DNA of 41,106 nucleotides. It comes from a virus. This document shows positions 6,507 to 31,491 of the stretch, piece by piece. Each line of letters opens with the position of its first letter. The first letter of the stretch is position 1. Where the stretch lies: positions 1 to 41,106 of IMG/VR virus record IMGVR_UViG_3300025921_000043. One strand, written 5' to 3'. The notes beneath the pieces were generated by a model. The model was given only the letters and a program-made list of their open reading frames with translations. It searched no databases and was not told the DNA's origin. Made by a program: the position numbers and the translations under genes.

Positions 6507-6532
6507 TACCCATCCGCGCCCCGACCTCCGAC
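6507..6532 (+). promoter_or_regulatory. late-type promoter motif TACC-N16-TCCGAC (copy 1)
   Basis: TACC (6507-6510), 16 bases, TCCGAC (6527-6532). It is preceded by GGCC, as in the strongest copies. It lies upstream of the first virion-block gene (6568), which would have a leader of about 28 bases with GGAGG. The spacing matches the FliA/WhiG class (TAAA-N15/16-GCCGATAA). Confidence 0.55.
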
Positions 6533-6567
6533 ATGCGGGCATCCCGACGAACGCTTGGAGGCCGAAC

Positions 6568-6804
6568 ATGCCCGCAACCACACTCAAGAACGAGCCCGGC
6601 ACCTACGCCAGGAACGGCCTCATCGTCATCCACGACGAGAAGCGCCTCGGCCGCGCCAGGATCATCCTCCGCCGCGGCCCTGACAACCACATCGACCTGT
6701 CGGCCTGGGTGCAGCGCGTCGAGACGATCTGCCAGGTCGATGACGTCGACCGGCACGTCGTCACGTTCATCAGCGGCGTCATGCCCGATGGCGAACAGGC
6801 GTAA
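6568..6804 (+). CDS. hypothetical protein at the head of the packaging operon
   Basis: A 78-residue protein from ATG 6568, which follows GGAGG (in TTGGAGGCC). Beta-rich pattern: RNGLIVIHDEKRLGRARIILRRGPDNHIDLSAWVQRVETI. No family recognised. It is the first gene after late-type promoter copy 1 and overlaps the small-terminase gene by 17 bases, so it is likely co-expressed with packaging proteins. Confidence 0.6.
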   Translation: MPATTLKNEPGTYARNGLIVIHDEKRLGRARIILRRGPDNHIDLSAWVQRVETICQVDDVDRHVVTFISGVMPDGEQA

Positions 6805-7237
6805 CTCGAAGGCCGAGGCGGACGAGGTACGAGCCGCCGAACTTCGCAGCCACGCCGTCGACCTCAAGAAGGCCGGTCACACCTACCGCGAGATCGCCTC
6901 CCAACTCGGCGTCAGTCTCGCCGCCGCTCACGGCTACGTGAAGCAGGCCGTCGCCGACCTCGCCGAGCATACGTTGGAGGAGACTGAGGACATGCGCCGC
7001 TTGGAGAACGAGCGGTTGGAGGCGATCCAGGTGAAGTTGTGGCCCGAGCGCGGCGACCCGAAAGTCGCATCCGTCCTCGTCCAACTCTCGCGCAGGCGCG
7101 CGGCGATCAACGGGTTGGACAGGCCGAAGAAGCTTGAGGTGGGTGGCGACCTCGGTCTCCGCGTCGACGTCTCCAGGTTGACGCCCGAGCAGCAGGCCCA
7201 ACTCGACGCGCTCCTGGCTGACGCTGGCGTCGAGTGA
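6788..7237 (+). CDS. terS: terminase small subunit-like DNA-binding protein
   Basis: A 149-residue protein from ATG 6788. Residues 15-55 form an HTH (LKKAGHTYREIASQLGVSLAAAHGYVKQAV), followed by a long helical region and a C-terminal tail (LTPEQQAQLDALLADAGVE). This layout, and the position directly before the large subunit with a 4-base overlap, fit the small terminase that recognises the packaging site and loads the motor. Sequence similarity in this family is weak, so the call rests largely on layout and context. Confidence 0.75.
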   Translation: MANRRNSKAEADEVRAAELRSHAVDLKKAGHTYREIASQLGVSLAAAHGYVKQAVADLAEHTLEETEDMRRLENERLEAIQVKLWPERGDPKVASVLVQLSRRRAAINGLDRPKKLEVGGDLGLRVDVSRLTPEQQAQLDALLADAGVE

Positions 7238-8700
7238 CGCTCTACCTCGGTACCGGCATGGCGACCCGCGCCGCCCTCGCCCTGGACAATTTGGGGATCT
7301 TCGTCCGCCAAGCGTGGGAAGTGATCGAGCCGGGCACGCCCTACGTGTCTGGCGACCACGTCGACTTGATGTGCCGCGCGCTGGAAGAGCTCGACCGCGG
7401 CGAGATCAAACGCCTCCTCATCAACGTCCCGCCCAGGCACATGAAGAGCCGCCTCGTGTCCGTGTTCTACCCGGCGTGGGCGCTCGCCCGAGACCCGACG
7501 CGACGCCTCATGTTCGCCAGCTACGCCAGCGACCTCTCCAGGCGTGACTCGATCGACACGCGCACCATCATCGAATCCTCGTGGTATCAGGAGCGGTGGG
7601 GCGCGAAGGTGAAGCTCACGCATGACCAGAACACGACGACCAGGTTCGCGACGACGGAGCGCGGCTACCGCATCGCCACCTCGGTCGGCGGGTCGGTCAC
7701 CGGGCTTGGTGGCGACGTCCTCGTCATCGACGATCCGCACAAGGCGGACGAGGCCGCGAGCCAGGCGAACCGCGAGGCGGTGATGCGGTGGTTCGACCAG
7801 GCATGGTCGACGCGCCTGAACGATCCGAAAACCTCGCGGATGGTCATCATCATGCAGCGCCTCCACGAAGAAGACCTCGCCGGCCACGTCCTCCAAAAGG
7901 GCGGCTGGGAACACCTCTGCCTCCCCGCCGAGTGGGATGCGAAACATCCGTACCGGTCGGTGCGCGACTGGCGCACCACCGACGGCGAGCTCCTCTGGCC
8001 GGCACGGGTTGGCCCGGCGGAGATCGAGCAGCAGAAGCTCGACCTCGGATCCTATGGCGCGGCCGGCCAGCTCCAACAGCTCCCAGCGCCGGGCGAGGGC
8101 GGCGAGGTGAAGCGCGAGTGGTGGCGCTACTACAAGGAACTCCCGGCGGAGTGCGACCGGATCATCTGCTCATGGGACACCAGTTTCACCGACGCGAAGA
8201 CGAGTGATTATGCGGTCGGCCAGGTGTGGGCTCGTGTCGGCGCGCGCTACTACCTTCTCGCCCAGATCCGCGAACGGATGACGTTCACCGAGGCCCGCGA
8301 CGCGACGATCCAGCAGTATGCGAGCGTCGTCGACGAGGCCGGGAGCTGCGACCTCGTGCTCGTGGAGAAGGCGGCGAACGGCCCCGCGTTGATCGACGTC
8401 CTCCACTCGGTGATCCCGTGCGTCCTCCCCGTCAAACCAAGGGACTCGAAGGTGGCGCGCGCCAGGGCCGTCGCGCCGACGATCGAAGCCGGCAACGTCT
8501 ACCTGCCCGACCCGAGTATCGCGCCGTGGATCGGCGACTACGTCAACGAGTGGAGCGTCTTCCCGCTCGGCGCGCACGACGACCAGGTCGACGCCACGTC
8601 GCAGGCGTTGCAGTGGTTGAAGCTCGACACTCCCGCCGGCACGACGACGCTGCGCAGGGCCGAGATCATCGACGGCGACGCCGACCCGCGCATCTCCTAG
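7234..8700 (+). CDS. terL: terminase large subunit
   Basis: A 488-residue protein. The ATPase domain has a Walker A-type loop VPPRHMKS (residues 65-72) and Walker B VLVIDDP (162-168). The C-terminal nuclease domain (about 305-470) shows the acidic residues D315 in CSWDTSFTDAKTSDYAV, E378 in LVLVEKAANG and the GAHDDQVDA motif near 447-454. It powers translocation of DNA into the prohead and cuts the concatemer. GTG 7234 overlaps the small subunit; an ATG at 7258 is an alternative. A late-type promoter motif lies directly after the stop. Confidence 0.95.
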   Translation: MTLYLGTGMATRAALALDNLGIFVRQAWEVIEPGTPYVSGDHVDLMCRALEELDRGEIKRLLINVPPRHMKSRLVSVFYPAWALARDPTRRLMFASYASDLSRRDSIDTRTIIESSWYQERWGAKVKLTHDQNTTTRFATTERGYRIATSVGGSVTGLGGDVLVIDDPHKADEAASQANREAVMRWFDQAWSTRLNDPKTSRMVIIMQRLHEEDLAGHVLQKGGWEHLCLPAEWDAKHPYRSVRDWRTTDGELLWPARVGPAEIEQQKLDLGSYGAAGQLQQLPAPGEGGEVKREWWRYYKELPAECDRIICSWDTSFTDAKTSDYAVGQVWARVGARYYLLAQIRERMTFTEARDATIQQYASVVDEAGSCDLVLVEKAANGPALIDVLHSVIPCVLPVKPRDSKVARARAVAPTIEAGNVYLPDPSIAPWIGDYVNEWSVFPLGAHDDQVDATSQALQWLKLDTPAGTTTLRRAEIIDGDADPRIS

Positions 8701-8703
8701 GCC

Positions 8704-8729
8704 TACCCGGCCGCTAGGGCCGCTCCGAC
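8704..8729 (+). promoter_or_regulatory. late-type promoter motif (copy 2), leaderless portal start
   Basis: TACC (8704-8707), 16 bases, TCCGAC (8724-8729), starting right after the terminase stop within TAGGCCTACCC. The portal ATG comes 9 bases after the motif and no ribosome site can be seen, so transcription would start at or next to the start codon. Confidence 0.6.
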
Positions 8730-8738
8730 CGGCGCGGT

Positions 8739-10220
8739 ATGGCTCGTATGCCCAAGGTGCTGAACCGCGACCAAACCCCGGGCTACATCTCGGAGCACTC
8801 CCCAGCCTACCGCGGCGGCTACGTCACCGACGTCAACCGCGACTACACGCCGGGCATCCTCCTCCAAGCCCTCGTCGACGCGCTCACCCCCCACGGCAAA
8901 TACAGGGCCGCCGTCCACGCCAAGGCATGGGCCGCCTACAACGGCGAACACCCCCGCAGCTTGCAGAAGGACACGACGGACAACACCGACGACGACGTCC
9001 GCATCAACTTCCCGCGCCTCGCCATCGAGACGGGCGTCACCTACTTGTTCGGCAAGCCGTTCACCATCCAAACCGGCGACGAGACGCAGACCGACATGCC
9101 CGAGGAAGAGCTTCTCGACGCGTTTTGGAAGCCGACGGGCGACGGCCTCGTCCGCCTCCAGAAGGCGAGCAAGTATGGCGGCATCAGCGGCCACGTCGTC
9201 GTGAAGCTCCAGCCCGACCCGGACAAGCCCGGCCCGCCGCGGTTGATCGTGTGTAACCCGACGGCGTTCGAGGCGAAGACGGAGCGCGACGACGCCGACC
9301 TCGTCTACGAGTACGACCTCCTCTGGGCCTACGACGACGCGAGCGGCACGATCCTCCGCCGGCAGCGCCACGTCAAGAACGACTCGGGCCTGTCGTGGAC
9401 GATCGTCGACGAGCAAGCCTTCATCGAGACCGCCGGCCAACCCCCCATCTGGATCACGCTCGACTCGGTGACGTGGGCATGGCCGTTCCCCGCGGTGTAC
9501 GACTGTCAGAACCTCCCCGACGTCGGCTACTACGGCGCGCCAGACTTGACGCAAGACGTCATCGACCTCGCCTACTCAGGCAACCGCAACGCGAGCAACC
9601 TGAACCGGATGGTGCGCCTCTTCGCCCACCCCCGATATGTGGGGATGGGGTTGGGGACGCTTGGTGCGGTCACGATGCGGCCCGGCGAGTTCCTCAACTT
9701 CCCCAGCGACGAGGCGAAGGTGCAAGCCCTCGCCGAGTATGGAGACATCGCGGGAGCCCTCCAGTTCGGAGACTCGCTGCGCCAGGCGTTCATGATGCTC
9801 GCCCACACCCCCGAGGTCGCGACCGGGAAGCTGGAGAACATCGGCCAGCTCTCCGGCCTTGCGATCCAGATCCTCTACGGCCCGCTCGTCGCCCGCATCG
9901 AGTTGAAGCGCCTCACCTACGGCGGACTCATCGACAAAGTCTCCGCGGCCGTCCTCGCGATGGGCGGATACGACCCCGAAACGCCGGTCGCGCTCAACTG
10001 GCCCGAAGTCGTCCCCACCGACCCGGTCGCCGAGGGCCAGTCTCTGATCCAGGATGAGCAGCTCGGCGCGTCGAAGCGGACGCTCCTCCAGAAGCGCGGC
10101 TATGACCCGGATGTGGAGGAGCAGCAGCGCGGCGCGGAGCAGGATGCGGCGATCGAAGCAGCGCAGCACTTGGCGGATCGCGGCGAAGGGCCGGGCGGCC
10201 TCGCCCCGCAGGCTGAATGA
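8739..10220 (+). CDS. portal protein (SPP1 gp6-like)
   Basis: A 493-residue protein. It has the usual portal features: an N-terminal alpha/beta region with INFPRLAIETGVTYLFGKPF (about residues 88-107), a central beta-rich part, and a long helical C-terminal half with TGKLENIGQLSGLAIQILYGPL, typical of SPP1 gp6-type portals. Twelve copies should form the ring through which DNA passes and to which terminase docks. The tail (EEQQRGAEQDAAIEAAQ) is polar and coiled. It begins leaderless after late promoter copy 2 and overlaps the minor head gene by 4 bases. Confidence 0.9.
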   Translation: MARMPKVLNRDQTPGYISEHSPAYRGGYVTDVNRDYTPGILLQALVDALTPHGKYRAAVHAKAWAAYNGEHPRSLQKDTTDNTDDDVRINFPRLAIETGVTYLFGKPFTIQTGDETQTDMPEEELLDAFWKPTGDGLVRLQKASKYGGISGHVVVKLQPDPDKPGPPRLIVCNPTAFEAKTERDDADLVYEYDLLWAYDDASGTILRRQRHVKNDSGLSWTIVDEQAFIETAGQPPIWITLDSVTWAWPFPAVYDCQNLPDVGYYGAPDLTQDVIDLAYSGNRNASNLNRMVRLFAHPRYVGMGLGTLGAVTMRPGEFLNFPSDEAKVQALAEYGDIAGALQFGDSLRQAFMMLAHTPEVATGKLENIGQLSGLAIQILYGPLVARIELKRLTYGGLIDKVSAAVLAMGGYDPETPVALNWPEVVPTDPVAEGQSLIQDEQLGASKRTLLQKRGYDPDVEEQQRGAEQDAAIEAAQHLADRGEGPGGLAPQAE

Positions 10221-11161
10221 CTGTCCGCGAAGCCGCGGAGCGTTACCGCGAGCGCCTCGCCGGCCACGACCAAGCCGCCGCGCGCACCATCACGCTCGCA
10301 TGGCGCGGCCACCTCGCCGAACTCCACACCCGCCTCCAAGCGCTGATCCGGGAGATGGAGGAGCATCCCGAGCTCGCCTACCCCGCCATCCGACGCCTCG
10401 CCTCGTATCAAGCGCTCGACGCGGAGATCCTGCGAGCGATGACCAGCGTCGGCGTGGCGGCGGCTGACGCGACGATCCGCGGCCAGGCGCTCGCCATCGA
10501 CACGAGCCTCACCGCCGCGCGCCGGTTGACGTTGTTGCAGGGCGAGGAGGAGTGGACTCCGATCGAGCGCCTCGCCGCCGTCTCGCTCGGCGACACCGCC
10601 GAGACGATCCAACTCTTGCGCGCCACATGGTCAGCCGGCGGGGATGATGCTCGGAGGACGCTGGCCGGCGCGATCCTCTCCAGGCAGTCACCCCGACGGG
10701 TGGCCGTGCTCATGAACCGCGCGTTCGGCACGCCCCTCCCCCGCGCTTTGACCATCTCCAGGACGGAGATCCTCCGCGCCGCCCGCGAAGCCTCACGGCA
10801 GAGCTACATCCAGAACCGGCACCTGTTGGTCGGCTGGACGTGGCTGAGCGCGATGGACGACCGCACCTGCCCATACTGCTGGAGCCAGACGGGCACCCAC
10901 CACCCCGTCACCGACGAACTCGTCAGCCACCCCAACTGTCGGTGCGTGATGGTGCCCGACACGGGTCGCCTCTCGATGCCGAACGGCGTCGAAGCGTTCG
11001 GCCGGCTATCGGCGGCGCGCCAAGCGAAGATCCTCGGCCCGAAAGCGTACGCCGCCTATAAGAGCGGCGAGATCACGCTCGCCGACCTCGCCGGCACGCG
11101 GGTGGATCCAAGGTGGGGCGAAGTCGGCTACACGCGGTCGGTCTCAGCCGCGCGATCCTGA
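10217..11161 (+). CDS. minor head protein (SPP1 gp7 / Mu gpF-like)
   Basis: A 314-residue protein, mostly helical, with the family signature near residues 177-250: TISRTEILRAAREASRQSY, WLSAMDDRTCPYCWSQTG and HPNCRCVMVP. The CPYC and CRC cysteines probably bind zinc. Members associate with the portal and enter the capsid; some are thought to protect or inject with DNA. Its 3' end overlaps the convergent reverse-strand gene at 11128 by 34 bases, which marks the edge of the inserted reverse operon. Confidence 0.85.
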   Translation: MTVREAAERYRERLAGHDQAAARTITLAWRGHLAELHTRLQALIREMEEHPELAYPAIRRLASYQALDAEILRAMTSVGVAAADATIRGQALAIDTSLTAARRLTLLQGEEEWTPIERLAAVSLGDTAETIQLLRATWSAGGDDARRTLAGAILSRQSPRRVAVLMNRAFGTPLPRALTISRTEILRAAREASRQSYIQNRHLLVGWTWLSAMDDRTCPYCWSQTGTHHPVTDELVSHPNCRCVMVPDTGRLSMPNGVEAFGRLSAARQAKILGPKAYAAYKSGEITLADLAGTRVDPRWGEVGYTRSVSAARS

Positions 11162-11316: not shown

Positions 11317-11423
11317 ACCATGAAGCCGATGAACAGGATGAAGCAGAGCGCGAAGAAGCAGGCGGTAATCGCCTTCCCCACGTCCGCGACCTGCTGACCC
11401 CGGTTCGGCACGCCGCCGATCAT
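11298..11423 (-). CDS. single-pass small membrane protein, 41 aa
   Basis: The sequence opens MIGGVPNRGQQVADVGKAI and is followed by one hydrophobic helix (CFFALCFILFIGFMVWALW) at the C-terminus. The ATG overlaps the stop of the glycosidase gene (ATGA), and its own end overlaps the next GTG by 19 bases, so the three genes are translationally coupled. It may anchor or support the secreted partner at the membrane, or be a short holin-like or exclusion protein; neither is proven. Confidence 0.55.
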   Translation of the reverse strand: MIGGVPNRGQQVADVGKAITACFFALCFILFIGFMVWALWP

Positions 11424-12277
11424 AGCGGCCTCGCGTTCACGATGATCGCGTCGGGGATCCGGCGCTTCCACGCCGACCCAACCGTCGCGCCCACCAAATG
11501 GCCGACCTGGGTGCGCGACCCCGTGTTGTGCGAGCCGCGGAGCGTCCACATCAACGCCGCGCCGCCCGAGTCGAACGTGATCGCCGTCTTGGCTCCCATA
11601 TTGACGAGGATCTGCGCAGCCAACGGCATCGATGCGTGACTGATCTCGACCAGGCCGACGCGGCCGTTCCGGAAGACGACGAGGTTCGACCGGCTGCACC
11701 CGTAGACGCCGTCGGTGCCGCGAGCTCCACAAGCCCACTGTTTCGGCGTCACCCACGGCGCGGTCAAAAACGATTGGGCGCGCCCGGCGACGACGAGGTA
11801 GGCGAGGCCATTCATGATCGACGCCGCTCCATGCCGGCGAGCGGCGCGGGCACCGAAGACGACGCGGCCGTTCCGGAGAAAGCCGACGGCGGGCGCGTCC
11901 ATCACGCCGCGGATCCTGCGGCCCTGCGCGAAAACCGTGCCCGACGGCCGGTAGGTGGCTGGGCGCGTCTGGTACGTGCCGCCGTTGATCGCGCAGACGG
12001 CGCGCGAGCGGTGCTGGCCGGCCATCGCCCAACCCGGAACGGTGTGGAGGCGTTTGGAGTAGCGGACGAGGCCGCGGACGCGGTTGTCGCCGGGGCGCCA
12101 TGAGCAGACGCGGACGTGGTGGCCGTAGACGATGAGGCCGTGCGTGCGGATCGTCGTCTTGGCGTTGAGGAAGGTGGCGGTGGGGTGGGCGTAGCTGGGC
12201 GCGGCGAACGCGGTGGCGAAGACGAAGACGCCGAGCGCGCAGCCGAGCAGGTAGCGGCATGTGGCAGTTTGGAGCAT
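11420..12277 (-). CDS. secreted phosphodiester glycosidase-domain protein (NAGPA/DUF2233-like)
   Basis: A 285-residue protein with a signal peptide (residues 1-30, LLGCALGVFVFATAFAAPSYA). The mature part has AINGGTYQT (about residues 96-104), VGFLRNGRVVFG, NLVVFRNGRVGLVEI and ITFDSGGAALM near 234-244, the order and motifs of the phosphodiester glycosidase family, whose members cut sugar-phosphodiester bonds. In Gram-positive hosts the likely targets are wall polymers or decorated surface glycans. ATG 12277 follows the leader motif GAGGGACACCAC (12281-12292, reverse); upstream in-frame sequence is the promoter. On the opposite strand to its virion neighbours, with its own promoter, it looks like a lysogeny-expressed cargo gene. 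Confidence 0.7.
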   Translation of the reverse strand: MLQTATCRYLLGCALGVFVFATAFAAPSYAHPTATFLNAKTTIRTHGLIVYGHHVRVCSWRPGDNRVRGLVRYSKRLHTVPGWAMAGQHRSRAVCAINGGTYQTRPATYRPSGTVFAQGRRIRGVMDAPAVGFLRNGRVVFGARAARRHGAASIMNGLAYLVVAGRAQSFLTAPWVTPKQWACGARGTDGVYGCSRSNLVVFRNGRVGLVEISHASMPLAAQILVNMGAKTAITFDSGGAALMWTLRGSHNTGSRTQVGHLVGATVGSAWKRRIPDAIIVNARPL

Positions 12278-12366: not shown

Positions 12367-12395
12367 GTGTGGAAATCCGGAGCGGGCGCTACGAT
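12367..12395 (+). promoter_or_regulatory. promoter of the second sigma operon, probably leaderless
   Basis: TGTGGA (12367-12372), 17 bases, TACGAT (12390-12395), with GGAAATCCGG at 12371-12380, as in the promoter before the first sigma-like gene (4137-4165). The GTG at 12404 lies 8 bases after the -10. This repeated promoter suggests both sigma operons are switched on together. Confidence 0.55.
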
Positions 12396-12403
12396 TAGTG
12401 CCG

Positions 12404-12673
12404 GTGGACGAGGCTCACGCCGACGCGCTCAAAGCATGGCGACACTCAGTCATGGACGCCTTACAGGCGTGCGGGCCATGCCCATCTGAGCGCGACGATG
12501 CGATCGAGGGCGGCATCCTCAGCCGGTGGATCGTGGTGCAGGAGTGGGTCGACCATGACGGGTCGGAATGGCTGCACGCTACGACGGGGCAGGGGGATGG
12601 GACGTGTACGCCGCCGTGGTGGACGGAGGGAGCTCTCGGCTACGCCTTCCGCGACACGGGAGACGACGATTGA
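12404..12673 (+). CDS. hypothetical protein upstream of the sigma gene
   Basis: An 89-residue protein from GTG 12404, the codon placed at the expected transcription start; a GTG at 12398 would overlap the promoter. A helical N-terminus is followed by ILSRWIVVQEWVDHDGSEWLHATTGQGDG, a beta-rich pattern resembling small actinophage proteins (DUF7213-like), though I hold that loosely. Its TGA overlaps the TTG of the sigma gene, so the two are translationally coupled. It might modulate the sigma factor, as anti-sigma genes often adjoin them, but no anti-sigma domain is visible. Confidence 0.6.
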   Translation: MDEAHADALKAWRHSVMDALQACGPCPSERDDAIEGGILSRWIVVQEWVDHDGSEWLHATTGQGDGTCTPPWWTEGALGYAFRDTGDDD

Positions 12674-13428
12674 GCACGATCGAGCGGCCACACACCCAGC
12701 CGCTCCGCCGGCCGCATGACCCGAACCGGCTGGCTGAGGAACACCTCGGCCTCGTCCATAGCGCGCTTCGCCGGCACCGCGCCGTCTACCCCGTCACGAT
12801 GGACGACCTCGAATCCGCCGCGATGCTCGCCCTCGTCCAAGCGTCGAGGCGGTGGAACTCTGAGCGCGGCGTCCCGTTCACCGCCTACGCGCGCAGAAGG
12901 ATCGACGGCGCGATCGTCGACGAGATCCGAAGGGTCAGGTACGGCCACACTCACGGTGAAGCTGACCCTCAGCCCGTCAGTACGAGCGACCACGAGTCGG
13001 CGGGCGCGACGACCGACAAGCCGGTGGAGGATCCCCAGCCGCTGCTCGACCAGATGACGCCGAGGCAGCGCCTCGTCGTCCAACTCCGCGAAGAGGGCTA
13101 CTCCACCCACGAGATCGCCGAACGCCTCGGCGTGTCGAGCCGCGCGGTGCGGGCGGTGTCGTGGGCGGGGATGTGGCGCGCCGGCATCATGCCCAGCCGC
13201 CCACACCTCATCACCCGCGAAGACCTCTACGTCCTCGCCATGAACGCGGAAGGCGTCCCATTGTTGGAGCAGGCGGCGAGGGTGGGGAAGACGTATGAGG
13301 GCGTGAAGAAGCAGCGGATCCGCGTGATGCAGAAGCTCGGCGCAAGGTCGATCAGCGACGCGGTGGAGAAGGCGCGCGCTCTCGGCTTGCTCGATGCCGG
13401 CGAGGGGCAGCAACAGCTTTTCGGGTAG
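12670..13428 (+). CDS. FliA/WhiG-like sigma factor with extra C-terminal HTH
   Basis: A 252-residue protein. Region 2 spans about residues 20-90, with VTMDDLESAAMLALVQASRR and the FliA/WhiG hallmark GVPFTAYARRRIDGAIVDEI. Region 4 spans 128-168 (PRQRLVVQLREEGYSTHEIA, ERLGVSSRAVRAV). A third segment (180-242, VPLLEQAARVGKTYEGVKKQ, VMQKLGARSISDAVEKA) looks like a LuxR-type HTH, unusual after region 4. TTG 12670 overlaps the previous stop; no better start exists in the frame. It probably redirects host RNA polymerase to the TACC-N15/16-CCGAC sites in the virion block. A strong terminator follows. Confidence 0.75.
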   Translation: MSTIERPHTQPLRRPHDPNRLAEEHLGLVHSALRRHRAVYPVTMDDLESAAMLALVQASRRWNSERGVPFTAYARRRIDGAIVDEIRRVRYGHTHGEADPQPVSTSDHESAGATTDKPVEDPQPLLDQMTPRQRLVVQLREEGYSTHEIAERLGVSSRAVRAVSWAGMWRAGIMPSRPHLITREDLYVLAMNAEGVPLLEQAARVGKTYEGVKKQRIRVMQKLGARSISDAVEKARALGLLDAGEGQQQLFG

Positions 13429-13474
13429 GCATTCTGCGCACCAGGGGTCTGTTCCCCCTTCACCAGAATGTCTC

Positions 13475-13513
13475 GCGGGCGCTCGGCTACCAACCGGGCG
13501 CCCGCGGCTTTTT
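13475..13513 (+). terminator. strong factor-independent terminator
   Basis: GCGGGCGC (13475-13482) pairs with GCGCCCGC (13498-13505); an inner CGG/CCG extends the stem. GGCTTTTT follows (13506-13513). It is the clearest terminator in the window and ends the sigma operon just before a late-type promoter, so sigma and scaffold/capsid genes are transcribed separately. A smaller GGGG/CCCC hairpin lies at 13443-13456. Confidence 0.85.
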
Positions 13514-13526
13514 CTGGGTAGGTGCC

Positions 13527-13551
13527 TACCGCCTAGTCCTCGTGTTCCGAC
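13527..13551 (+). promoter_or_regulatory. late-type promoter motif (copy 3) before the scaffold gene
   Basis: TACC (13527-13530), 15 bases, TCCGAC (13546-13551), immediately downstream of a strong terminator. That position makes promoter function likely, because the scaffold and capsid genes would otherwise have no obvious promoter. The leader is about 50 bases and contains AGGAGG before the ATG. Confidence 0.65.
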
Positions 13552-16052: not shown

Positions 16053-16077
16053 TACCTCTTGCCGTGTGGTGGCCGAC
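16053..16077 (+). promoter_or_regulatory. late-type promoter motif (copy 4), leaderless start
   Basis: TACC (16053-16056), 15 bases, GCCGAC (16072-16077); here the -10-like element is exactly GCCGA, as in WhiG promoters. The ATG of the next gene lies 8 bases later with no ribosome site. Confidence 0.55.
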
Positions 16078-16085: not shown

Positions 16086-16244
16086 ATGCCGCCGCGCCTC
16101 CACGCCGACCGCCTCAACGCTCTCGAACTCCAGGTCGACCAGCAAGACGCGCGGATCCTCGAACTTGAGGCGGCGATGGCGATCCTCCTCGCCGCGCCCA
16201 ACTGGACTGACCTCCCCGCACCCCCGGCCGAGGAGGCGGCATGA
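16086..16244 (+). CDS. short coiled-coil protein, 52 aa
   Basis: The ATG at 16086 lies 8 bases after late promoter copy 4. The sequence LHADRLNALELQVDQQDARI, then LELEAAMAILLAA, has heptad spacing of Leu/Ile and should form a helix that oligomerises. A Pro-rich tail follows, and the stop overlaps the connector gene start. A head accessory role is inferred from position. The upstream open frame to 16017 would read through the promoter and is rejected. Confidence 0.5.
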   Translation: MPPRLHADRLNALELQVDQQDARILELEAAMAILLAAPNWTDLPAPPAEEAA

Positions 16245-17568: not shown

Positions 17569-17983
17569 ACAGGCCATCGAGCGGAACCTGAACACGCTCC
17601 TCGGAGCGGACGCGACGCTGCTCTCGCTTGCCACCGGGGGAGTCTTCATCGACCCGGTACCGCCGGGCGCTGCGCGGCCGATGGTCGTCGTCGCCGTCCA
17701 AGCCCCCCAAGCCGACACGTACACCCTCCGCAAGCGCATAGAAGAGGTCACCGACTACCAGGTCAAGGCGATCACCGACGGCGAATCCAAGGTGGTCGGT
17801 CAGACGATCGCCGCGCGCATCGACGCCATCCTCAACGACGCGACGCCCACCCTCGAAGCCGGGTGGATCGTCCTCAACATCCGCCGCGTCCGCGCTGTCG
17901 ACTACGCGGAGGTGCCTACCGCGACCGACCAGCCGATCCGACACCAGGGCGGCATCTACCGCTTCGAGGTCACCCAGCCATGA
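17558..17983 (+). CDS. tail terminator-like protein
   Basis: A 141-residue protein from GTG 17558. The segments ARQAIERNLNTLLGADATLL, SLATGGVFIDPVPPGAARPM, VVVAVQA and TDYQVKAITDGES follow the pattern of DUF3168/gpU-like tail completion proteins: a helix, a loop with the short-sequence GGVF, then strands. It would cap the tail tube and join it to the head. It sits directly before the tail tube genes, as expected. Confidence 0.7.
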   Translation: MDARQAIERNLNTLLGADATLLSLATGGVFIDPVPPGAARPMVVVAVQAPQADTYTLRKRIEEVTDYQVKAITDGESKVVGQTIAARIDAILNDATPTLEAGWIVLNIRRVRAVDYAEVPTATDQPIRHQGGIYRFEVTQP

Positions 17984-18150
17984 CGACCACCGCCACCAAG
18001 TATCGAGCCCTCGCCGGCTTCAACTATCGCCCCGTCGCCAGCGAGGAGCACGAAGTCCGCGTCGAAGCGGATGAGGTCGTCCACCTCCCCGACCACGTCG
18101 TGAAAGAGCTCCGCCCGCAGGGCGTCGTCGAAGCTGAGAAGAAGGCCTAG
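17980..18150 (+). CDS. small protein before the tail tube genes
   Basis: A 56-residue protein with ATGA overlap upstream and TAGTG overlap downstream. The core KYRALAGFNYRPVASEEHEV, then RVEADEVVHLPDHVVKEL, suggests a small beta-rich domain. Short genes of this type occur in front of tail tube genes in many actinophages, but the role is unknown. Confidence 0.55.
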   Translation: MTTTATKYRALAGFNYRPVASEEHEVRVEADEVVHLPDHVVKELRPQGVVEAEKKA

Positions 18151-18881
18151 TGGCGTTCGTTCATGGCAAGCAGGGCGCCGTCTACATCGGCGGGTACAAC
18201 CTCACGAGCTACGTCGCGAAGCATGACGTGAAGGCGCAGAAAGACGTCGCCGACGTGTCAGTCCTCGGAGCCGCCAGCAAGGCGTACGTCGCGGGGCAGA
18301 GCGACGCGCAGATCAGTTTCGACGGGTTCTTTGACGGGTCTCCGAACGCGGTCATCGCGCGCCTGAACGCGCTCTTCAACGTCGACACGATGGACAACTG
18401 GCTCGTCCTCCCCCAGGGCGACCAGGCTGGAGCCCCAGGGTATGGCATCTCGGGTTGCGTCACCGACTATGAACCGTCGGGGGATGTCGGGTCGGCGGTC
18501 GCGGTGACGTTCACCGCCCAGTCCGTCGTCGATATCGACCCGGTCACCGTCCTCCAGCCCCTCGCCCTCCAGTCGGCCGGCGGCAACTCGGTCGGCCAGG
18601 ACTATGGCGGCGGCGGCGCCCGCACGAACGGCCTCGCCTCCTACCTCGTCGTCACCGCCGGCACCGCCGTCACGACGGCGACGGTGAAGGTGCAGCACTG
18701 CACCACCCTCGGCGGCACCTACGTCGACCTCCTCACCCATACGGCGGTCGTCCAGGCCGGCATCCCCCTCAGTGAGCGGCTCACCGTCCCGGTCGGGACG
18801 ACGATCAACGAGTTCATCCGGAGCCTCTGGACGATCACCGGCACCAACATCACCTTCCACCACTCGGTTGCACGCTTCTAG
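18150..18881 (+). CDS. major tail protein, long form (tube plus C-terminal domain)
   Basis: A 243-residue protein. Residues 1-130 match the next gene product: HGKxG, DVKxxKDxADVSxLG, SKAYVAG and YEPSGDxGSAV are shared, which marks a tail tube fold. Residues 140-243 form an added beta-rich domain (YLVVTAGTAVTTATVKVQHC, TTLGGTYVDLL) of Ig-like or decoration type that would project outside the tube. Start is GTG 18150 in TAGTG. The pair probably arose by duplication. Which copy builds most of the tube cannot be told from sequence. Confidence 0.8.
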   Translation: MAFVHGKQGAVYIGGYNLTSYVAKHDVKAQKDVADVSVLGAASKAYVAGQSDAQISFDGFFDGSPNAVIARLNALFNVDTMDNWLVLPQGDQAGAPGYGISGCVTDYEPSGDVGSAVAVTFTAQSVVDIDPVTVLQPLALQSAGGNSVGQDYGGGGARTNGLASYLVVTAGTAVTTATVKVQHCTTLGGTYVDLLTHTAVVQAGIPLSERLTVPVGTTINEFIRSLWTITGTNITFHHSVARF

Positions 18882-18890: not shown

Positions 18891-19298
18891 ATGGCTTTCT
18901 CCCACGGCAAGAACGGCGTCTTCAAGATCAACGACACGGTGTCGCTGCGAGACATCTCGCAGTACGTGACGAAGGTCGACGTGAAGCGGAACAAGGACAC
19001 CGCCGACGTCTCCGCCCTCGGCAACTCCAGCAAGGCGTATGTGGCGGGCATGAGGGACGGCCAGATCTCGATCGACGCGTTGTGGGATCCGACGCTGATC
19101 GGCTTCCTGAACACGATCTGGAACCAGGACGCGGCGACGGCGTTCGAGTGGGATCCAGCCGGCACCGCGACCGGCCAGCCGAAGCTGACCGGCAACTGCA
19201 TCCTCACCGACTACGAACCGTCGGGCGACACCGGGTCGGCCGTCACGCTGAGCATCACGCTCCAGGTGACGGGCGGCGTCACGGACGGCACGAACTAG
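18891..19298 (+). CDS. major tail protein paralogue, short form
   Basis: A 135-residue protein from ATG 18891 behind AGGAGG. It keeps only the tube domain shared with the preceding gene (SHGKNGVFKI, DVKRNKDTADVSALGNSSKA, DYEPSGDTGSAV). Its length suits a minimal tail tube subunit. A mixed tube, or one protein forming the tube and the longer one decorating it, are both possible. Confidence 0.75.
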   Translation: MAFSHGKNGVFKINDTVSLRDISQYVTKVDVKRNKDTADVSALGNSSKAYVAGMRDGQISIDALWDPTLIGFLNTIWNQDAATAFEWDPAGTATGQPKLTGNCILTDYEPSGDTGSAVTLSITLQVTGGVTDGTN

Positions 19299-20473: not shown

Positions 20474-21402
20474 TGCGGTTCCTCGCAGGCATCGTTGTTC
20501 TCGTTGTTCTCGTTGTTCTCGTTGCTTGTGCCGCTGCCCATTCGGACGCCGCCACGAGTCTCGTGCCGAGCGTCAGGGGCGGGAAGTTCGAGGTGACGTG
20601 CAAGCCGAACGCGATCCCGCCGCAGGCGGTCGACCCGATCGTCGCGCCGGGCGTCACGAGCTCGCACCAACACACCTTCTTCGGCTCCAAGAGCGTGTCG
20701 AGCACGAGCACTCCCGCGACCCTCCAAGCGAGCACGGCAGGAACGACGTGTGTCCTCGCGGCGGATGGCGCGGCGTACTGGGTGCCGACTGCCTGCGATG
20801 GGCCATGCGTCGACGCGGCCGGCCTGCCAACCAAGGGGACGGATCCGGCCGATCCGATCGCGAACACCGTCAAGCCGGTCAAGATCTTCGCCTACTACTT
20901 CGGCACGCCCGGTGTGGTCGAGGCGCAGTACCCCGCCAACCTCCAGATGGTCGGCGGGAACGCGGCGGCGACCGTGCCCGACGCGCAGATGATCGGCTTC
21001 TCCTGCGGCAACGGCGGCTCCCACTCATCGCCGACCCGGAGCCTGCCCTACGACTGTACGGCTGCGAACGGAGTCAGCGGCTCGGATGGCGTCGTCGCGA
21101 TCGTCAAGTTCCCCTACTGCCTCGAACCATCGGGCGGCGTCGAGTACGGAGCTGTGGTCGGCGGCGCGTGCCCCACAGGCGATTCGACGTTGGGCCAGGT
21201 TCAGATCCACGTCCACTACGGGTTGAACGCGACCGGCTACCAGACGGGGAGCCGCCTCAACTTCACGTCAGGCCCCGCCTACACGTTCCACGGCGACTGG
21301 CAGAACGGGTGGCAGCAGGCCAAGCTCGCCACCCTCGTCAGCGGCTGCCTCGACATCGACCACGACTGCGGCTTCCTCACCACGTCCAACCCCGGCCCCT
21401 GA
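20473..21402 (+). CDS. secreted DUF1996-like protein
   Basis: A 309-residue protein from ATG 20473, with a signal sequence built on a DNA tandem repeat (VVLVVLVVLVACAAA). The mature protein has DPIVAPGVTSSHQHTFFGSK, a pattern of DUF1996 with clustered His, then IFAYYFGTPG, VQIHVHYG and NGWQQAKLATLVSGCLD. The family is mostly secreted, from fungi and actinobacteria, with unknown activity. Cys in the signal region (VAC) could suggest a lipoprotein, but the lipobox is imperfect. It is an unusual gene for a tail module and is probably cargo acting outside the cell. Confidence 0.7.
   Translation: MRFLAGIVVLVVLVVLVACAAAHSDAATSLVPSVRGGKFEVTCKPNAIPPQAVDPIVAPGVTSSHQHTFFGSKSVSSTSTPATLQASTAGTTCVLAADGAAYWVPTACDGPCVDAAGLPTKGTDPADPIANTVKPVKIFAYYFGTPGVVEAQYPANLQMVGGNAAATVPDAQMIGFSCGNGGSHSSPTRSLPYDCTAANGVSGSDGVVAIVKFPYCLEPSGGVEYGAVVGGACPTGDSTLGQVQIHVHYGLNATGYQTGSRLNFTSGPAYTFHGDWQNGWQQAKLATLVSGCLDIDHDCGFLTTSNPGP
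20493..20528 (+). repeat. 9-base tandem repeat inside a signal peptide
   Basis: CGTTGTTCT occurs three times exactly (20493-20519), followed by a diverged copy (20520-20528). Each unit adds VVL to the hydrophobic core of the signal peptide. Slippage would change core length in steps of three residues without breaking the frame. Confidence 0.8.
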
Positions 21403-22577: not shown

Positions 22578-22602
22578 CGCCCCTCGCCCGCCCGCGTCCG
22601 AC
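22578..22602 (+). promoter_or_regulatory. late-type promoter motif (copy 5, degenerate) before the tape measure
   Basis: A TAGGCCCGCCC block replaces TAGGCCTACCC; CGCC (22578-22581), 15 bases, TCCGAC (22597-22602). The tape measure ATG is 8 bases further on, the same spacing as other leaderless copies. The upstream half is a weak match, so confidence rests on the second half and the spacing. Confidence 0.45.
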
Positions 22603-25803: not shown

Positions 25804-25828
25804 TACCCGGCGGCTTCCACGTTCCGAC
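25804..25828 (+). promoter_or_regulatory. late-type promoter motif (copy 6), leaderless start
   Basis: TAGGCCTACCC with TACC (25804-25807), 15 bases, TCCGAC (25823-25828). The next GTG is 8 bases after the motif. CCACG/CGTGG flank TTCCGA and could pair, but similar pairing is only partial in other copies. Confidence 0.6.
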
Positions 25829-25836
25829 GTGGGGGC

Positions 25837-26811: not shown

Positions 26812-26817
26812 GCCGGC

Positions 26818-27540
26818 GTGGCTGTGACGCCCGTCAAGATCGGTGGGGCCGGGTCGACCACGTCGGCGCAGACGAGCATCGTCGCCGCCCTCACAGCTGG
26901 CGCATCGGTGGGCGACCTTGTCGTGTTCATCGCTTCGATCGGCACGGCGAAGCAGGGCACCGTCCCGACCGACACGAAGGGCAACACGTGGCACCTCATC
27001 GCCCAGCCGCAGAGCGGAGTCGCCGCCGTCTGCAACATGTGGTACAGCGTCCTCACGGCCGCGTTGACCACGAGCGACACGATCACGACGACGTGGACGG
27101 GCAGCGTCGCGCGCAGGGCGTGGACGGTGCTGAAATGCTCGGGCCTCACTAGCACTCCGCTCGACCTTAGCGGCACCGCTAACGCGGCTACCGCGACGAG
27201 CCTCAGCCTCACCACCGGCTCGGCGATCAGCCAAGCCGACGAACTCATCCTCGCGGCATACGGCTGGGACGAGACGGCCTTGACGACGAACGCGGTCATG
27301 TCGGCCGACACGGGTTACACCGTGATCGACCAGGAGTTGGCGGGTGGGGGTGGGACGAACCAGATCGGCGTCGGTGTCGAGTGGCAGGAGACGGCCGCGG
27401 TCGCGACGGTCACGGCGTCGCCGACGATGAACGAGGCTTGCGCGGGCCTGGCTGGGGTGATCGCGACGTTCCTCGTGGCCGGCGGCGGCGGGGGTGGCGC
27501 GACGCCGCATCCGCTGCTCCTCGTCGGCGTCGGAGGCTAA
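26818..27540 (+). CDS. beta-sandwich tail protein, unknown family
   Basis: A 240-residue protein from GTG 26818. Repeated strand patterns (GDLVVFIASIGTAKQ, NTWHLIAQPQSG, WTVLKCSGL, DELILAAYGWDE) and a Gly-rich C-terminus suggest a jelly-roll or similar sandwich. The first 200 residues of the next gene product have the same order of elements (GDTLFLVCATRG, SWDIYTKKHA, VAMLLGVPGL). It is probably a surface-exposed tail protein with a role in adsorption; this is inference. Confidence 0.6.
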   Translation: MAVTPVKIGGAGSTTSAQTSIVAALTAGASVGDLVVFIASIGTAKQGTVPTDTKGNTWHLIAQPQSGVAAVCNMWYSVLTAALTTSDTITTTWTGSVARRAWTVLKCSGLTSTPLDLSGTANAATATSLSLTTGSAISQADELILAAYGWDETALTTNAVMSADTGYTVIDQELAGGGGTNQIGVGVEWQETAAVATVTASPTMNEACAGLAGVIATFLVAGGGGGGATPHPLLLVGVGG

Positions 27541-27543
27541 CCC

Positions 27544-29733
27544 GTGAGTCTCCTCACCCTCCTCGCGCCCGCCGGAACCGGCGGTGGTGGCGGCGGCGGG
27601 ATCGGCACGCCCTACAACGCCAGCGCGCCGTTGGCGAACGTGAGCAACGGCAACACGTTCACCATCACCACGACGGTCACCGTCCCGCAGGGCGACACGC
27701 TCTTCCTCGTCTGCGCCACCCGCGGCACCAACCCGGCAGTCGTCGCCAGCATCCTCGGGGCGTCCGGCTCGTGGGACATCTACACGAAGAAGCACGCGAC
27801 GAGCTCGCTCGGCTCGTCGATCTGCCGGCTCGTCGCCGGGGCCGGCGGCATCCCATCGGGGACTGTGCTGTCGGTGACGTTGGATGCGGTGACGATCCGG
27901 AAGGTCGCGATGCTGCTCGGCGTCCCCGGCCTCCTGAACGCGACGGCGGACGTGTCGATCGGAGCGAGCGGCGGCGCCGGCACACCCGACACCGGGAGCT
28001 CGGCCTCCACGTCGCAGGCAGTCGAGTTCGCCGTCGCGTGCTTCTCCAAAGTCGCCGCCACCGCCGGAGAATCGGGCTCGCCCGACACTGTGCATGGCAC
28101 CTACACCGAGTTCCTCGACCAGGTAGCCGGCGCGGCGACCTATGGCTATGGGTATGCCGAGTGGCAGATCCTCGCCGCGACCGGCTTCCAAGAAGCCACC
28201 TTCACGCCCAGCGACCTGACCAACAACTGGGTCGGCCTCTTGCTCTGCTTCAAGGGCGTGACCGGGTCGCCGCCCGCGAACACCGTCCTCCCCGTCCTTT
28301 CGGGCACGCCAGCGGTGGGCAACACGCTCTCCGCGTCGCAGGGGTCATGGTCGAACTCGCCCACCTCGTATGCCTACCAGTGGCAACGCTCGGCGACGGG
28401 CGTCGGATCGTGGGCGGATATCGCGAGCGCGACCGCACCCTCGTATACGTGCAACGCGATCGACGCCAACAACTTCTTGCGCTGCACCGTCACCGCTTCC
28501 AACGCCGCCGGCCAGACGGCGGCTTCTTCTCTCGCGACTGTGAGGTTGCCCGTGCCCCCGACCACCAGCTACCCCAGCCTGATCGTCGAGTGGTCGCCGA
28601 CGACGAATCCCGGCGCGACGCCCGTCTGGGTCGACATCACGAGCCTCTGCCGCTCGATCTCGACGCAGCGCGGCCGGCAGGACGAAACCGGGTCGGTGCA
28701 GGGCGCAACGATGACGCTCATCCTCGACAACTCGTCGGGCGCCTTCGACCCGCTCTTCTCGTCAGGCCCGAACTTCGGCAACGTTCTCCCCATCCGCCAG
28801 GCCAGGGTCAGAGCCGTCTACAACGCCGTCACCTACCCCGTCTGGCGAGGGTATATGCAGGCGATCAACCCGCAGTGGCCCGACCTCACCAAGAACGACC
28901 AGGTGGAGGTCGACTGCGTCGACGCGTTCGAGGCTCTCAACTTGGCGGCGATCGACGGTCTCAACACCGTCCTCGAAGACTCAGGCTCTCGCGTGGCGAC
29001 GGTGCTCGGCTTCGTCGGCTACACCGGAGCCACCTCGCTCGAAACGGGCATCTCGCAGATCATCGGCGACTTCATGCAAGGCTCGGCCCTCAGCCACCTC
29101 CAGGATGTGGAGACGACCGAAAACGGGATGCTCTTCGTCAGCCGCGACGGGACGCTCGCGTTCCAGAACCGTCAGCATCGCATCCTCCACGAACAGACGA
29201 GCCAGGGCGTGATCGGAGACGGCGGCGGCAGCGAAGTCGGGTACAGCAGCACCGACCCGGCCTACGACACCGCCTTCATCTTCAACGACGTCACCGCGAC
29301 GACGAAGGACGGCATCCCCGCCAACAGCTCAGACGCGACGAGCCAACTCCAGTATTGGAAGCGGAGCCTCCCCCGCAGCCTTCTCATCGCCGGGGTCGAC
29401 GAAGCCCAGTCGTGCGCCGATTATCTGCGCAGCCGGTATGCCCAGCCCGTGCTCCGCTTCCCGACGATCACGATCAACCCCGCCGCCCAACCCACGATCG
29501 CATGGCCCTTGATCCTCGGCCTTGAGTTGTCGAATCGGGTAACGGTGAAGCGTCGCCCGCCGCACGGCGGCACCATCTCGGTCGACTGCTACCTGGAGGG
29601 CGTCGGCCACACCATCACCCCCCAAGGCTGGCAGGTCACGCTCAACCTCTCGCCCGCATCGAACCAGGCGGTGTGGGTGCTCGGAGACTCGGTGAACGGC
29701 GTCCTGGGGTCGACGACGGTGCCGGGGTACTAG
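27544..29733 (+). CDS. large minor tail protein with Ig-like domain
   Basis: A 729-residue protein from GTG 27544. Residues 10-240 form a beta-sandwich related to the preceding gene product; 245-340 an Ig-like domain (PAVGNTLSASQGSWSNSPTS, YAYQWQRS, LRCTVTASNAAG); the rest (WVDITSLCRSISTQRGRQDE, LILDNSSGAFDPLF, WRGYMQAINPQWP) matches the baseplate/minor tail proteins of actinophages that start with a D-I-x-x-x-V/C hub motif. The order suggests a hub with fused host-binding modules at the N-terminus, which is an uncommon arrangement. Confidence 0.75.
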   Translation: MSLLTLLAPAGTGGGGGGGIGTPYNASAPLANVSNGNTFTITTTVTVPQGDTLFLVCATRGTNPAVVASILGASGSWDIYTKKHATSSLGSSICRLVAGAGGIPSGTVLSVTLDAVTIRKVAMLLGVPGLLNATADVSIGASGGAGTPDTGSSASTSQAVEFAVACFSKVAATAGESGSPDTVHGTYTEFLDQVAGAATYGYGYAEWQILAATGFQEATFTPSDLTNNWVGLLLCFKGVTGSPPANTVLPVLSGTPAVGNTLSASQGSWSNSPTSYAYQWQRSATGVGSWADIASATAPSYTCNAIDANNFLRCTVTASNAAGQTAASSLATVRLPVPPTTSYPSLIVEWSPTTNPGATPVWVDITSLCRSISTQRGRQDETGSVQGATMTLILDNSSGAFDPLFSSGPNFGNVLPIRQARVRAVYNAVTYPVWRGYMQAINPQWPDLTKNDQVEVDCVDAFEALNLAAIDGLNTVLEDSGSRVATVLGFVGYTGATSLETGISQIIGDFMQGSALSHLQDVETTENGMLFVSRDGTLAFQNRQHRILHEQTSQGVIGDGGGSEVGYSSTDPAYDTAFIFNDVTATTKDGIPANSSDATSQLQYWKRSLPRSLLIAGVDEAQSCADYLRSRYAQPVLRFPTITINPAAQPTIAWPLILGLELSNRVTVKRRPPHGGTISVDCYLEGVGHTITPQGWQVTLNLSPASNQAVWVLGDSVNGVLGSTTVPGY

Positions 29734-29736
29734 GCC

Positions 29737-29761
29737 TACCCGCACAGCGTCGTGTGCCGAC
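29737..29761 (+). promoter_or_regulatory. late-type promoter motif (copy 7), leaderless start
   Basis: TAGGCCTACCC with TACC (29737-29740), 15 bases, GCCGAC (29756-29761); the GTG at 29770 is 8 bases downstream. This spacing moves the next gene's start from 29752, which lies inside the motif, to 29770. Confidence 0.6.
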
Positions 29762-29769
29762 TGGTGGGC

Positions 29770-30171
29770 GTGGAGCGTCCAATCATCACGCGCGCGCGGG
29801 TCGGCCACACCTTCGCCTCGCTCCTCGCGAACAACTGGCCCCCCGGCGTCCCCGTGTTCCAGCCCGGCCTGCCGCAGGACGGCGACCCGAAGGCCGCCGT
29901 CCTCGTGAACCACGGCAGGTGGGCCGCGTTCTGCCCACACTGCACCGGGGCATCGTTGGCCGACCCGGCCGACCACCGCTTCTTCTGCGTCGACTGCCTC
30001 AACATGCATGTCGACGGCCGCGTGATCTATGCAAGGTGGCCGAAGGACTGGCAGGAGATCGAACAGCGCCTCCTCCTGCGCCCCGACGCCGACACGCGTA
30101 ACTGGATGCCCGGCGAACGCCTCGCCGACCTCGACGCAGAGAACATCGAGCACGGGCTGGTGAAGGCGTAG
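29770..30171 (+). CDS. zinc-binding protein of the tail region
   Basis: A 133-residue protein from GTG 29770, chosen because it lies 8 bases after late promoter copy 7. A CPHC (about residue 56) and CVDC (about 75) pair form a probable zinc ribbon in HGRWAAFCPHCTGAS and FFCVDCLNMHVDGR. A helical C-terminus includes DWQEIEQRLLLRP. Comparable zinc-ribbon proteins occur in actinophage tail regions without assigned function. Its stop overlaps the next GTG. Confidence 0.6.
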   Translation: MERPIITRARVGHTFASLLANNWPPGVPVFQPGLPQDGDPKAAVLVNHGRWAAFCPHCTGASLADPADHRFFCVDCLNMHVDGRVIYARWPKDWQEIEQRLLLRPDADTRNWMPGERLADLDAENIEHGLVKA

Positions 30172-30680
30172 TGGCGTGGACAACTCCCATTTCCTGGGTC
30201 ACCGGATCGGTCGTCACCGCCGCGCAGCTCAACCAGCAGCTCCGCGACAACCTCAACTTCCTGTTCGACCCGCCCGAGGCGCGCATCTTCAATGCTGCGG
30301 TGAGCGTCGCGAGCGGTACCGTGCCGGGCGCGTTGAGCCTCCCTACCGTCGTCTGGGACAGCACCGGGTCGACCATGACGAGCGCGGCGGGGAAGATCAC
30401 CATCCCCCTCGCAGGGGTCTACGAAGTGAACGGCGGCGGCGTGTGGGGAGCGTCGGCGACCGGCGTCGTCAGGCGTCTCGGCTTCCTCTACCCCGGCCCG
30501 ACGAGCGGCGGCACGAGCCTCGTCCAGAACTCGAACAACATCACCGTCGAGCAGACGGCGAGCGACATGACGAAGTTTGCGGCGAACGACACCGTCCAGC
30601 TCGCCGGGGCGCAGAACTCTGGCGGCGCTTTGAACCTTACGAACGCCGTCCTCATCGTGGCTTGGGCGGGGGCAGGGTGA
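30171..30680 (+). CDS. phage fibre-type protein with C1q/TNF-like C-terminal domain
   Basis: A 169-residue protein from GTG 30171. The start AWTTPISWVTGSVVTAAQLN, then QQLRDNLNFLFDPPEA, is a recurrent opening in phage structural proteins. The rest (TSAAGKITIPLAGVYEVNGG, VVRRLGFLY, TKFAANDTVQLAGAQNSGG) follows the strand order of trimeric C1q-like heads. It could be a receptor-binding tip. Coupled by GTG/TAG overlap upstream and a 4-base overlap downstream. Confidence 0.7.
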   Translation: MAWTTPISWVTGSVVTAAQLNQQLRDNLNFLFDPPEARIFNAAVSVASGTVPGALSLPTVVWDSTGSTMTSAAGKITIPLAGVYEVNGGGVWGASATGVVRRLGFLYPGPTSGGTSLVQNSNNITVEQTASDMTKFAANDTVQLAGAQNSGGALNLTNAVLIVAWAGAG

Positions 30681-31021
30681 CGCTCACCCTTACCCTCGTG
30701 GTGGTTGCGCTCGTCAGCGCCGTCGCCACCGGGTACGCCTACTTCCGCAGCTCGGCGGTGAAGGTGTGGGAGCAGAACTCGGAGGCGTACCGCGCTCGCG
30801 TCGAGTTGCTTGAGAAGCAGAACCGCGAGCTGGAAAGCAAGTTGCGGTGGATGGAGCAGCGCATCCACGAGCTCGAAGCCCGTCCGGATTGGACGCAGGT
30901 CGTCGCCGTCGTCGGCGTCACCGAGCGGAACATCATCGCGGCGATCAAGGAGATGCGCGCCGAGATCACGACGGAACGCACCCGCGTTCACCTCAAGGAA
31001 GGTGAGAAGAATGGAGCCTGA
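30677..31021 (+). CDS. membrane-anchored coiled-coil protein
   Basis: A 114-residue protein from GTG 30677. Residues 2-22 (TLTLTLVVVALVSAVATGYA) form one membrane segment; residues 30-65 (YRARVELLEKQNRELESKLR, WMEQRIHELEA) form a coiled coil; the end is charged. This layout, just before another single-pass protein and the endolysin, suits a lysis accessory such as a holin partner or spanin-like factor, but it could also be a virion anchor. Confidence 0.6.
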   Translation: MTLTLTLVVVALVSAVATGYAYFRSSAVKVWEQNSEAYRARVELLEKQNRELESKLRWMEQRIHELEARPDWTQVVAVVGVTERNIIAAIKEMRAEITTERTRVHLKEGEKNGA

Positions 31022-31331
31022 ACTTCGCCGGCCGACGACCGCCGTCATCGTCGCCGGGGTGAGCATCGTCCTCCTCGTGGCCGCGTTGATCTGGGGTGTC
31101 GCCCAGGCCCGCGACGCGGCCGAGAAGGGCTCCGTCGCCCACGCCGCGCTGTGCATCCAATACGAGGCGTACGTCGCGCAGCGCGCCCAAGGCGAACACC
31201 TGCTCGCCACCCAACATGGGCGGCTGATCCATTACGCCGGCCTCGCGCTGACCCGGTCGGCGATCGAGCGCAGCGTCCGCATCGAGACGACGCAGATCAA
31301 CGCCCTCGCCATCCTCCACTGCTCGAAGTGA
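31011..31331 (+). CDS. single-pass membrane protein near the lysis genes
   Basis: A 106-residue protein from ATG 31011 behind AAGGTGAG. A hydrophobic helix at residues 10-30 (AVIVAGVSIVLLVAALIWGV) is followed by a soluble helical domain. It overlaps the preceding gene by 11 bases. It may pair with the preceding coiled-coil protein as holin or anti-holin; a second holin candidate is at 33732. Confidence 0.6.
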   Translation: MEPELRRPTTAVIVAGVSIVLLVAALIWGVAQARDAAEKGSVAHAALCIQYEAYVAQRAQGEHLLATQHGRLIHYAGLALTRSAIERSVRIETTQINALAILHCSK

Positions 31332-31462
31332 AGCAGCTCGCCACGCTATGCGAGTGGTGCGGCCAGTGGGTGATCGGCCGCGGCTACCACGTCAACGGGC
31401 GCACGTTCTGCTCATGGGCGCACTACCTCGCTTGGCTCACCCGTCGAGACAGAGGCCGCTAG
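31328..31462 (+). CDS. small zinc-finger protein, 44 aa
   Basis: The sequence opens with VKQLATLCEWCGQWVIGRGY and continues HVNGRTFCSWAHYLAWLTRR. C-x2-C followed by H and C could bind one zinc (treble-clef or MYM-like style). The GTG overlaps the previous stop. It ends the tail block, and late promoter copy 8 starts right after its TAG. Function unknown. Confidence 0.55.
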   Translation: MKQLATLCEWCGQWVIGRGYHVNGRTFCSWAHYLAWLTRRDRGR

Positions 31463-31465
31463 GCC

Positions 31466-31491
31466 TACCCCGCACTTCCGATGGTTCCGAC
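31466..31491 (+). promoter_or_regulatory. late-type promoter motif (copy 8) before the endolysin
   Basis: TAGGCCTACCC with TACC (31466-31469), 16 bases, TCCGAC (31486-31491). A GTG lies 7 bases after it, but this opens a 14-codon frame; the endolysin ATG is at 31522 with GGAGG in front. The lysis genes therefore have their own late promoter. Confidence 0.6.

Follow-up and report, generated by a model that had tools for sequence, protein, structure and literature searches.

The DNA analysed in this study, here called the window, is the whole 41,106-base IMG/VR virus record IMGVR_UViG_3300025921_000043, with a G+C content of 68%. It encodes a terminase, portal, scaffold, capsid, major tail protein, tape measure, endolysin and serine-type integrase, and since genes of a tailed phage and an integrase are both present, the virus is a temperate tailed phage. 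Its capsid most resembles the capsids of Streptomyces and Gordonia phages (54-58%); taken with the G+C content, this points to an actinobacterium as the probable host. No tRNA or Rfam matches were found in the 41,106-base window. Among the tail genes, the major tail protein gene (18150-18881) is followed by a shorter gene (18891-19298) with about 72-77% DNA identity to it over two stretches, which has the look of a partial duplication, and a DUF1996 protein is encoded at 20563-21402.

With reference to relatives, three contigs (L005, L031 and L151) were recognized as pieces of the same phage, with identity above 99.9%. No close relative was detected when the sigma factor, terminase, capsid, portal and integrase were queried against viral contigs, nor when the sigma factor was queried against genome contigs and five proteins were searched by tblastn against phage records. 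All that these searches gave were pieces of the same phage and distant relatives that lack the late motif described below.

We observed two kinds of repeated, promoter-like sequence in this genome. The late motif, [G]CCTACC-N15/16-[T/G]CCGAC, was recorded at ten sites, all on the + strand and spanning 6021 to 31491, while a different module, TGGAAATCCGG-N9-TACGMTT, has two copies in the whole window, one per sigma unit, with 0.02 expected. These features, with the two sigma genes and a terminator, are as follows.

4140..4166, + strand: promoter-like module TGGAAATCCGG-N9-TACGMTT; the ATG of the sigma gene at 4173 is 7 nt past TACGCT
4173..4736, + strand: second sigma-70-superfamily gene, the alternative candidate, upstream of RusA and terminase
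6021..6045, + strand: late promoter-like site; the GTG start of 6054-6281 is 8 nt past CCGAC; overlooked earlier
6507..6532, + strand: late promoter-like site; leadered, ATG 6568 with GGAGG, 35 nt downstream
8704..8729, + strand: late promoter-like site, portal gene next; ATG 8739 is 9 nt past CCGAC
12370..12396, + strand: second copy of the module; GTG 12404 is 8 nt past TACGAT and the operon 12404-13428 follows
12670..13428, + strand: sigma factor gene, candidate late sigma; the TTG start overlaps the preceding stop
13473..13517, + strand: intrinsic terminator, 14-bp stem and T run; closes the sigma gene, just 5' of the site at 13527
13527..13551, + strand: late promoter-like site, ahead of scaffold and capsid; leadered, ATG 13607 with AGGAGG
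16053..16077, + strand: late promoter-like site; ATG 16086 is 8 nt past CCGAC
17917..17942, + strand: late promoter-like site, intragenic, ahead of 17980 and the major tail protein at 18150; overlooked earlier
22578..22602, + strand: late promoter-like site, upstream half degenerate; the tape measure ATG 22611 is 8 nt past CCGAC
25804..25828, + strand: late promoter-like site; GTG 25837 is 8 nt past CCGAC
29737..29761, + strand: late promoter-like site; GTG 29770 is 8 nt past CCGAC
31466..31491, + strand: late promoter-like site, ahead of the endolysin gene; leadered, ATG 31522 with GGAGG

The late motif was the top over-represented spaced dyad in the window, in a search that spanned all 4-mer/5-mer dyads and was not supplied with the motif beforehand (score 9.8, rank 1, against 6.8 for the best of 12 Markov simulations). 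Exact matches to TACC-N15/16-KCCGAC numbered nine on the + strand and none on the - strand, with 0.35 expected, and none of 100 shuffled sequences reached nine. A weight matrix trained on nine sites, with 17917 excluded from training, placed all ten at 15.6-23.8 bits, the next match down being at 13.0 bits; 17917 was recovered blind at 20.0 bits, and on leave-one-out every one of the nine training sites ranked between 1 and 14 among 328,488. The spacer between the halves is 15 or 16 bases and no other length. Eight of the ten sites are wholly non-coding, compared with 4.4% of 25-bp stretches overall, the remaining two lying within a gene (17917) or partly in coding sequence (6021). RNA folding near two of the late sites revealed nothing unusual.

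The original prediction had listed eight of these sites, and all eight are real, at the coordinates tabulated above and with halves 15 or 16 bases apart; the degenerate upstream half that it reported at 22578 was confirmed, CGCC replacing TACC there. The list was incomplete, lacking 6021 and 17917. Its observation that every site lies on the + strand holds for matrix matches of at least 15.6 bits, and the absence of sites from the early half holds for matches above 13.0 bits, so that the weight-matrix scan it had proposed did not return matches equally often inside genes or in the early half. The context that it described, TAGGCCTACCC directly after a stop codon, fits exactly in four places and is not a general rule, as it is missing at 6021, 6507, 13527, 16053 and 17917.

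Beyond the window, the 16-base form of the motif that includes the start codon was found in four IMG/VR stretches only, one of them the present phage, and the 16-base TAGGCCTACC form gave as its only match in the IMG/VR scan a fragment of the present phage. The looser 14-base form gave single, scattered, chance-like hits among the IMG/VR matches listed. Besides the window, the motif was present only in contigs that are near-identical pieces of this phage; none of the IMG/VR relatives recognized by capsid and terminase carry it, and no exact match occurs in the Rowa or Nyceirae genomes. Streptomyces phage Rowa (L029) displays an inverted dyad of its own, CACC-N13-AGGTG, in 13 copies, possibly operator sites.

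A fixed register to the start codon was also observed. At 6021, 16053, 22578, 25804 and 29737 the predicted ATG or GTG start falls exactly 8 nt past CCGAC, and at 8704 the distance is 9 nt; an RTG 8 nt past CCGAC at five of ten sites has a p of about 2.5e-6 per offset, uncorrected for the 40 offsets. At these six sites the short distance leaves almost no space for a ribosome-binding site. The starts that follow 6507, 13527 and 31466 are 30-55 bases away and have strong Shine-Dalgarno sequences, with pairing of -8.9 to -11.4 kcal/mol; pairing at the other starts is not nil everywhere (-6.3 at 16086 and -4.8 at 29770). In the E. coli FliA promoter aer, TAAA-N15-GCCGAC, transcription starts 6 bp past the 8-base -10 octamer (PMC2859248), about 8 bases past CCGAC, and on this measure the predicted mRNAs of the six sites would begin at or within 1-2 bases of the start codon. 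We infer that these six sites would yield leaderless mRNAs starting with AUG or GUG. All six predicted start codons are ATG or GTG, and in mycobacteria the leaderless position tolerates AUG and GUG only (PMC4633059).

The terminator upstream of 13527 (62-nt fold, -32.9 kcal/mol) lies directly 5' of that site, and the scaffold and capsid genes would therefore need a fresh transcription start there. A -35/-10 pair would account for the two spacings, for the presence of the motif on one strand and for its confinement to late genes. The features of a late promoter set read by a phage sigma factor, namely a repeated bipartite motif, late genes, one strand and absence from the early half, are all displayed.

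The sites had been assigned to a variant of the FliA/WhiG promoter class, of which the geometry was upheld and the membership was not. The 15-16 base spacing between TA of the -35 tetramer and nCCGA of the -10 is as in aer (PMC2859248), the [G]CCGAC core is alike, and the start, about 8 bases past CCGAC, is likewise alike as predicted here. WhiG promoters, however, have been sought as TAAA-N15/16-GCCGATAA with no more than two mismatches of 12 (PMC8325347), and every late site has 5-7. Measured against TAAA-N15-GCCGATAA, the sites match 5-7 of 12 positions and rank within the top 0.7-10% of random positions. The -35 is TAAA in that class and GCCTACC here, the end of the -10 octamer is not preserved, and FliA/WhiG sigma factors possess a region 3 that is missing in the 12670 candidate. 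Judged by sequence, the late sites have the layout of FliA promoters, yet stand outside the FliA/WhiG promoter class.

Both phage sigma products exceed the curated cut-off of the sigma-70 superfamily. The 12670 product scores 45.8 bits for region 2, 37.5 for region 4 and 66.8 for TIGR02937, all above cut-offs, with its region 2 nearest to FliA, while the 4173 product is above cut-off for region 2 and TIGR02937 and under it for region 4, its region 2 being weaker and not FliA-like. Against TIGR02479 (FliA_WhiG), the 12670 product reaches 55.3 bits through region 2 only, the cut-off being 189.6. No match to sigma region 3 was detected in it; about 35 low-confidence residues separate region 2 from a region-4-like helix-turn-helix (HTH), and its C-terminus harbors an extra HTH with weak LuxR/GerE likeness by sequence. 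The single-sequence structure models of both sigma factors are poor (mean pLDDT 53 and 56) and gave no fold matches at E 0.001; the C-terminal domain of the 12670 model (pLDDT about 80) fits a GerE/LuxR HTH, again with no fold match at E 0.001.

The 12670 gene is situated in an insert-like cassette with its own promoter-like module and its own terminator, and in its operon (12404-13428) the small ORF at 12404 comes first and the sigma gene last. Beside it, on the - strand (11420-12277), lies the gene of a secreted-type protein that has a NAGPA phosphodiester glycosidase domain and is likewise placed in an insert-like cassette, among the head genes. With its own module and terminator and an opposite-strand neighbour, the 12670 gene may be accessory. 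Neither sigma factor, nor the NAGPA protein or the integrase, matched anti-phage-defence families. The module shared by the sigma genes formed no part of the original prediction; one possibility is a host sigma-A -10 (TAnnnT) acting with a bound regulator, another is a promoter of ECF type.

Position, strand, spacing, start-codon register and terminator context together argue for late promoters of an alternative, probably phage-encoded sigma factor, a reading that is well supported by the sequence evidence. GCCTACC would serve as the -35 and TCCGAC or GCCGAC as the -10, and transcription would begin about 8-9 bases past CCGAC, so that a gene at the start point would be expressed from a leaderless mRNA and a gene further on would use its Shine-Dalgarno sequence. 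The second promoter type would turn on both sigma genes, giving a cascade from early genes to sigma to late genes. We put at about 0.72 the probability that the ten sites serve as promoters for the late (head, tail and lysis) genes of a temperate phage, starting about 8-9 bases past CCGAC and read by an alternative sigma factor, most likely the phage's own, with the 12670 product favoured. The proposal of late promoters read by a phage sigma factor is retained in this form, minus its FliA/WhiG label. The 12670 product is favoured, and the 4173 product kept as the alternative, because region 2 of the former is FliA-like, as is the -10 core, and its downstream part is unlike FliA, as is the -35; a FliA-like match between region 2 and the -10, beside an unlike C-terminal part and -35, would make a consistent picture. 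A fuller version is offered tentatively, as one that could well fail in some part: a hybrid sigma factor that combines a FliA-like region 2 with an extra LuxR-like HTH and has no region 3 would act at ten or more late promoters, in six of which the -10 stands at a constant distance from the first codon, making much of the virion programme leaderless, and it would itself be switched on with the second sigma factor from a private promoter type.

Other explanations were weighed against this reading. It is possible, though rather unlikely, that the sites are late promoters served by the 4173 product or by both sigma factors together, with 12670 as an accessory cassette. Late regulators are usually located where the 4173 gene stands, ahead of RusA, a methyltransferase and terminase, and the 12670 unit, with its own module and terminator, adjoins the opposite-strand NAGPA gene; nevertheless, the weaker region 2 of the 4173 product is not FliA-like, whereas the -10 core is. 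We consider it improbable that a host alternative sigma factor, of WhiG/FliA or ECF type, reads the sites in place of a phage one. The spacing and the CCGA core do agree with FliA/WhiG (PMC2859248, PMC8325347), but the 5-7 mismatches of 12 to the flagellar consensus speak against it, the ECF, sigma-A and SigB consensus sequences fit the late sites no better, and the phage carries two sigma genes of its own.

Explanations outside transcription initiation were given still less weight. Mycobacteriophage L5 reportedly has stoperators, one-directional repressor sites at gene ends, and the late sites too are oriented with transcription and occupy short intergenic positions. Sites of that kind are very unlikely here, given two elements with 15/16 spacing, the fixed start-codon register and a distribution that leaves out both the early half and the integrase region. 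Phages of clusters K and EF have start-associated elements (SAS/ESAS), and the start codons near six of the sites would suit a translation-initiation or start-associated element; we regard this as the most doubtful reading, since the motif has no evident anti-SD complementarity, the start is 30-55 bases off at four sites and a separate strong Shine-Dalgarno sequence is present at three. The varying distance from motif to start fits a promoter, which needs no constant distance, better than a translation signal, which would hold to one.

If the preferred reading of late promoters under a phage sigma factor is true, this temperate phage of a probable actinobacterial host would provide a sigma-promoter pair whose start is predicted at each site, and late phage genes expressed from leaderless mRNAs. 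The short hybrid sigma factor could serve as a compact orthogonal transcription tool in high-GC hosts, and the late regulon of an orphan phage without relatives would be readable from sequence alone.

Late promoter sets read by a phage's own sigma factor are already known, and the original claim that no described phage has such a distributed set does not stand. To our knowledge, a FliA-like -10 is known in neither the T4 nor the SPO1 system. phiEco32 gp36, T4 gp55 and SPO1 gp28/gp34 are phage sigma factors that redirect host core polymerase to middle or late promoters (PMC8948821, PMC9429907), the phiEco32 promoters having one element, tAATGTAtA, as against two here (PMC8948821). The nearest system is Salmonella phage 7-11, with eight bipartite late promoters, GTAAtg-16-aCTA, read by SaPh711_gp47 with host core polymerase (PMC8948821). 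Its promoters are spread ahead of late genes as in the present phage, its transcripts start 6-9 bp from the element, and its sigma gene lies within the late cluster; it has an unrelated consensus and a single phage sigma factor, whereas two sigma genes occur here, the term leaderless is absent from that paper, and the promoters were not predictable from sequence by its authors (PMC8948821). Among actinophages, Microbacterium phages of clusters EC and EI have repeated intergenic motifs plus a sigma gene, the EC motif being 18 bp long with 12 copies (PMC7302621). As here, the EC copies are same-oriented repeats in small intergenic regions before genes of a phage with a sigma gene; in contrast, they differ in sequence, lie 21-30 bp 5' of start codons and upstream of the ribosome-binding site, and occur mainly among non-structural genes (PMC7302621). 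As far as our searches reach, what is new in the present phage is the sequence of the motif, the architecture of the sigma factor, the register that predicts leaderless mRNAs and the module shared by the two sigma genes.
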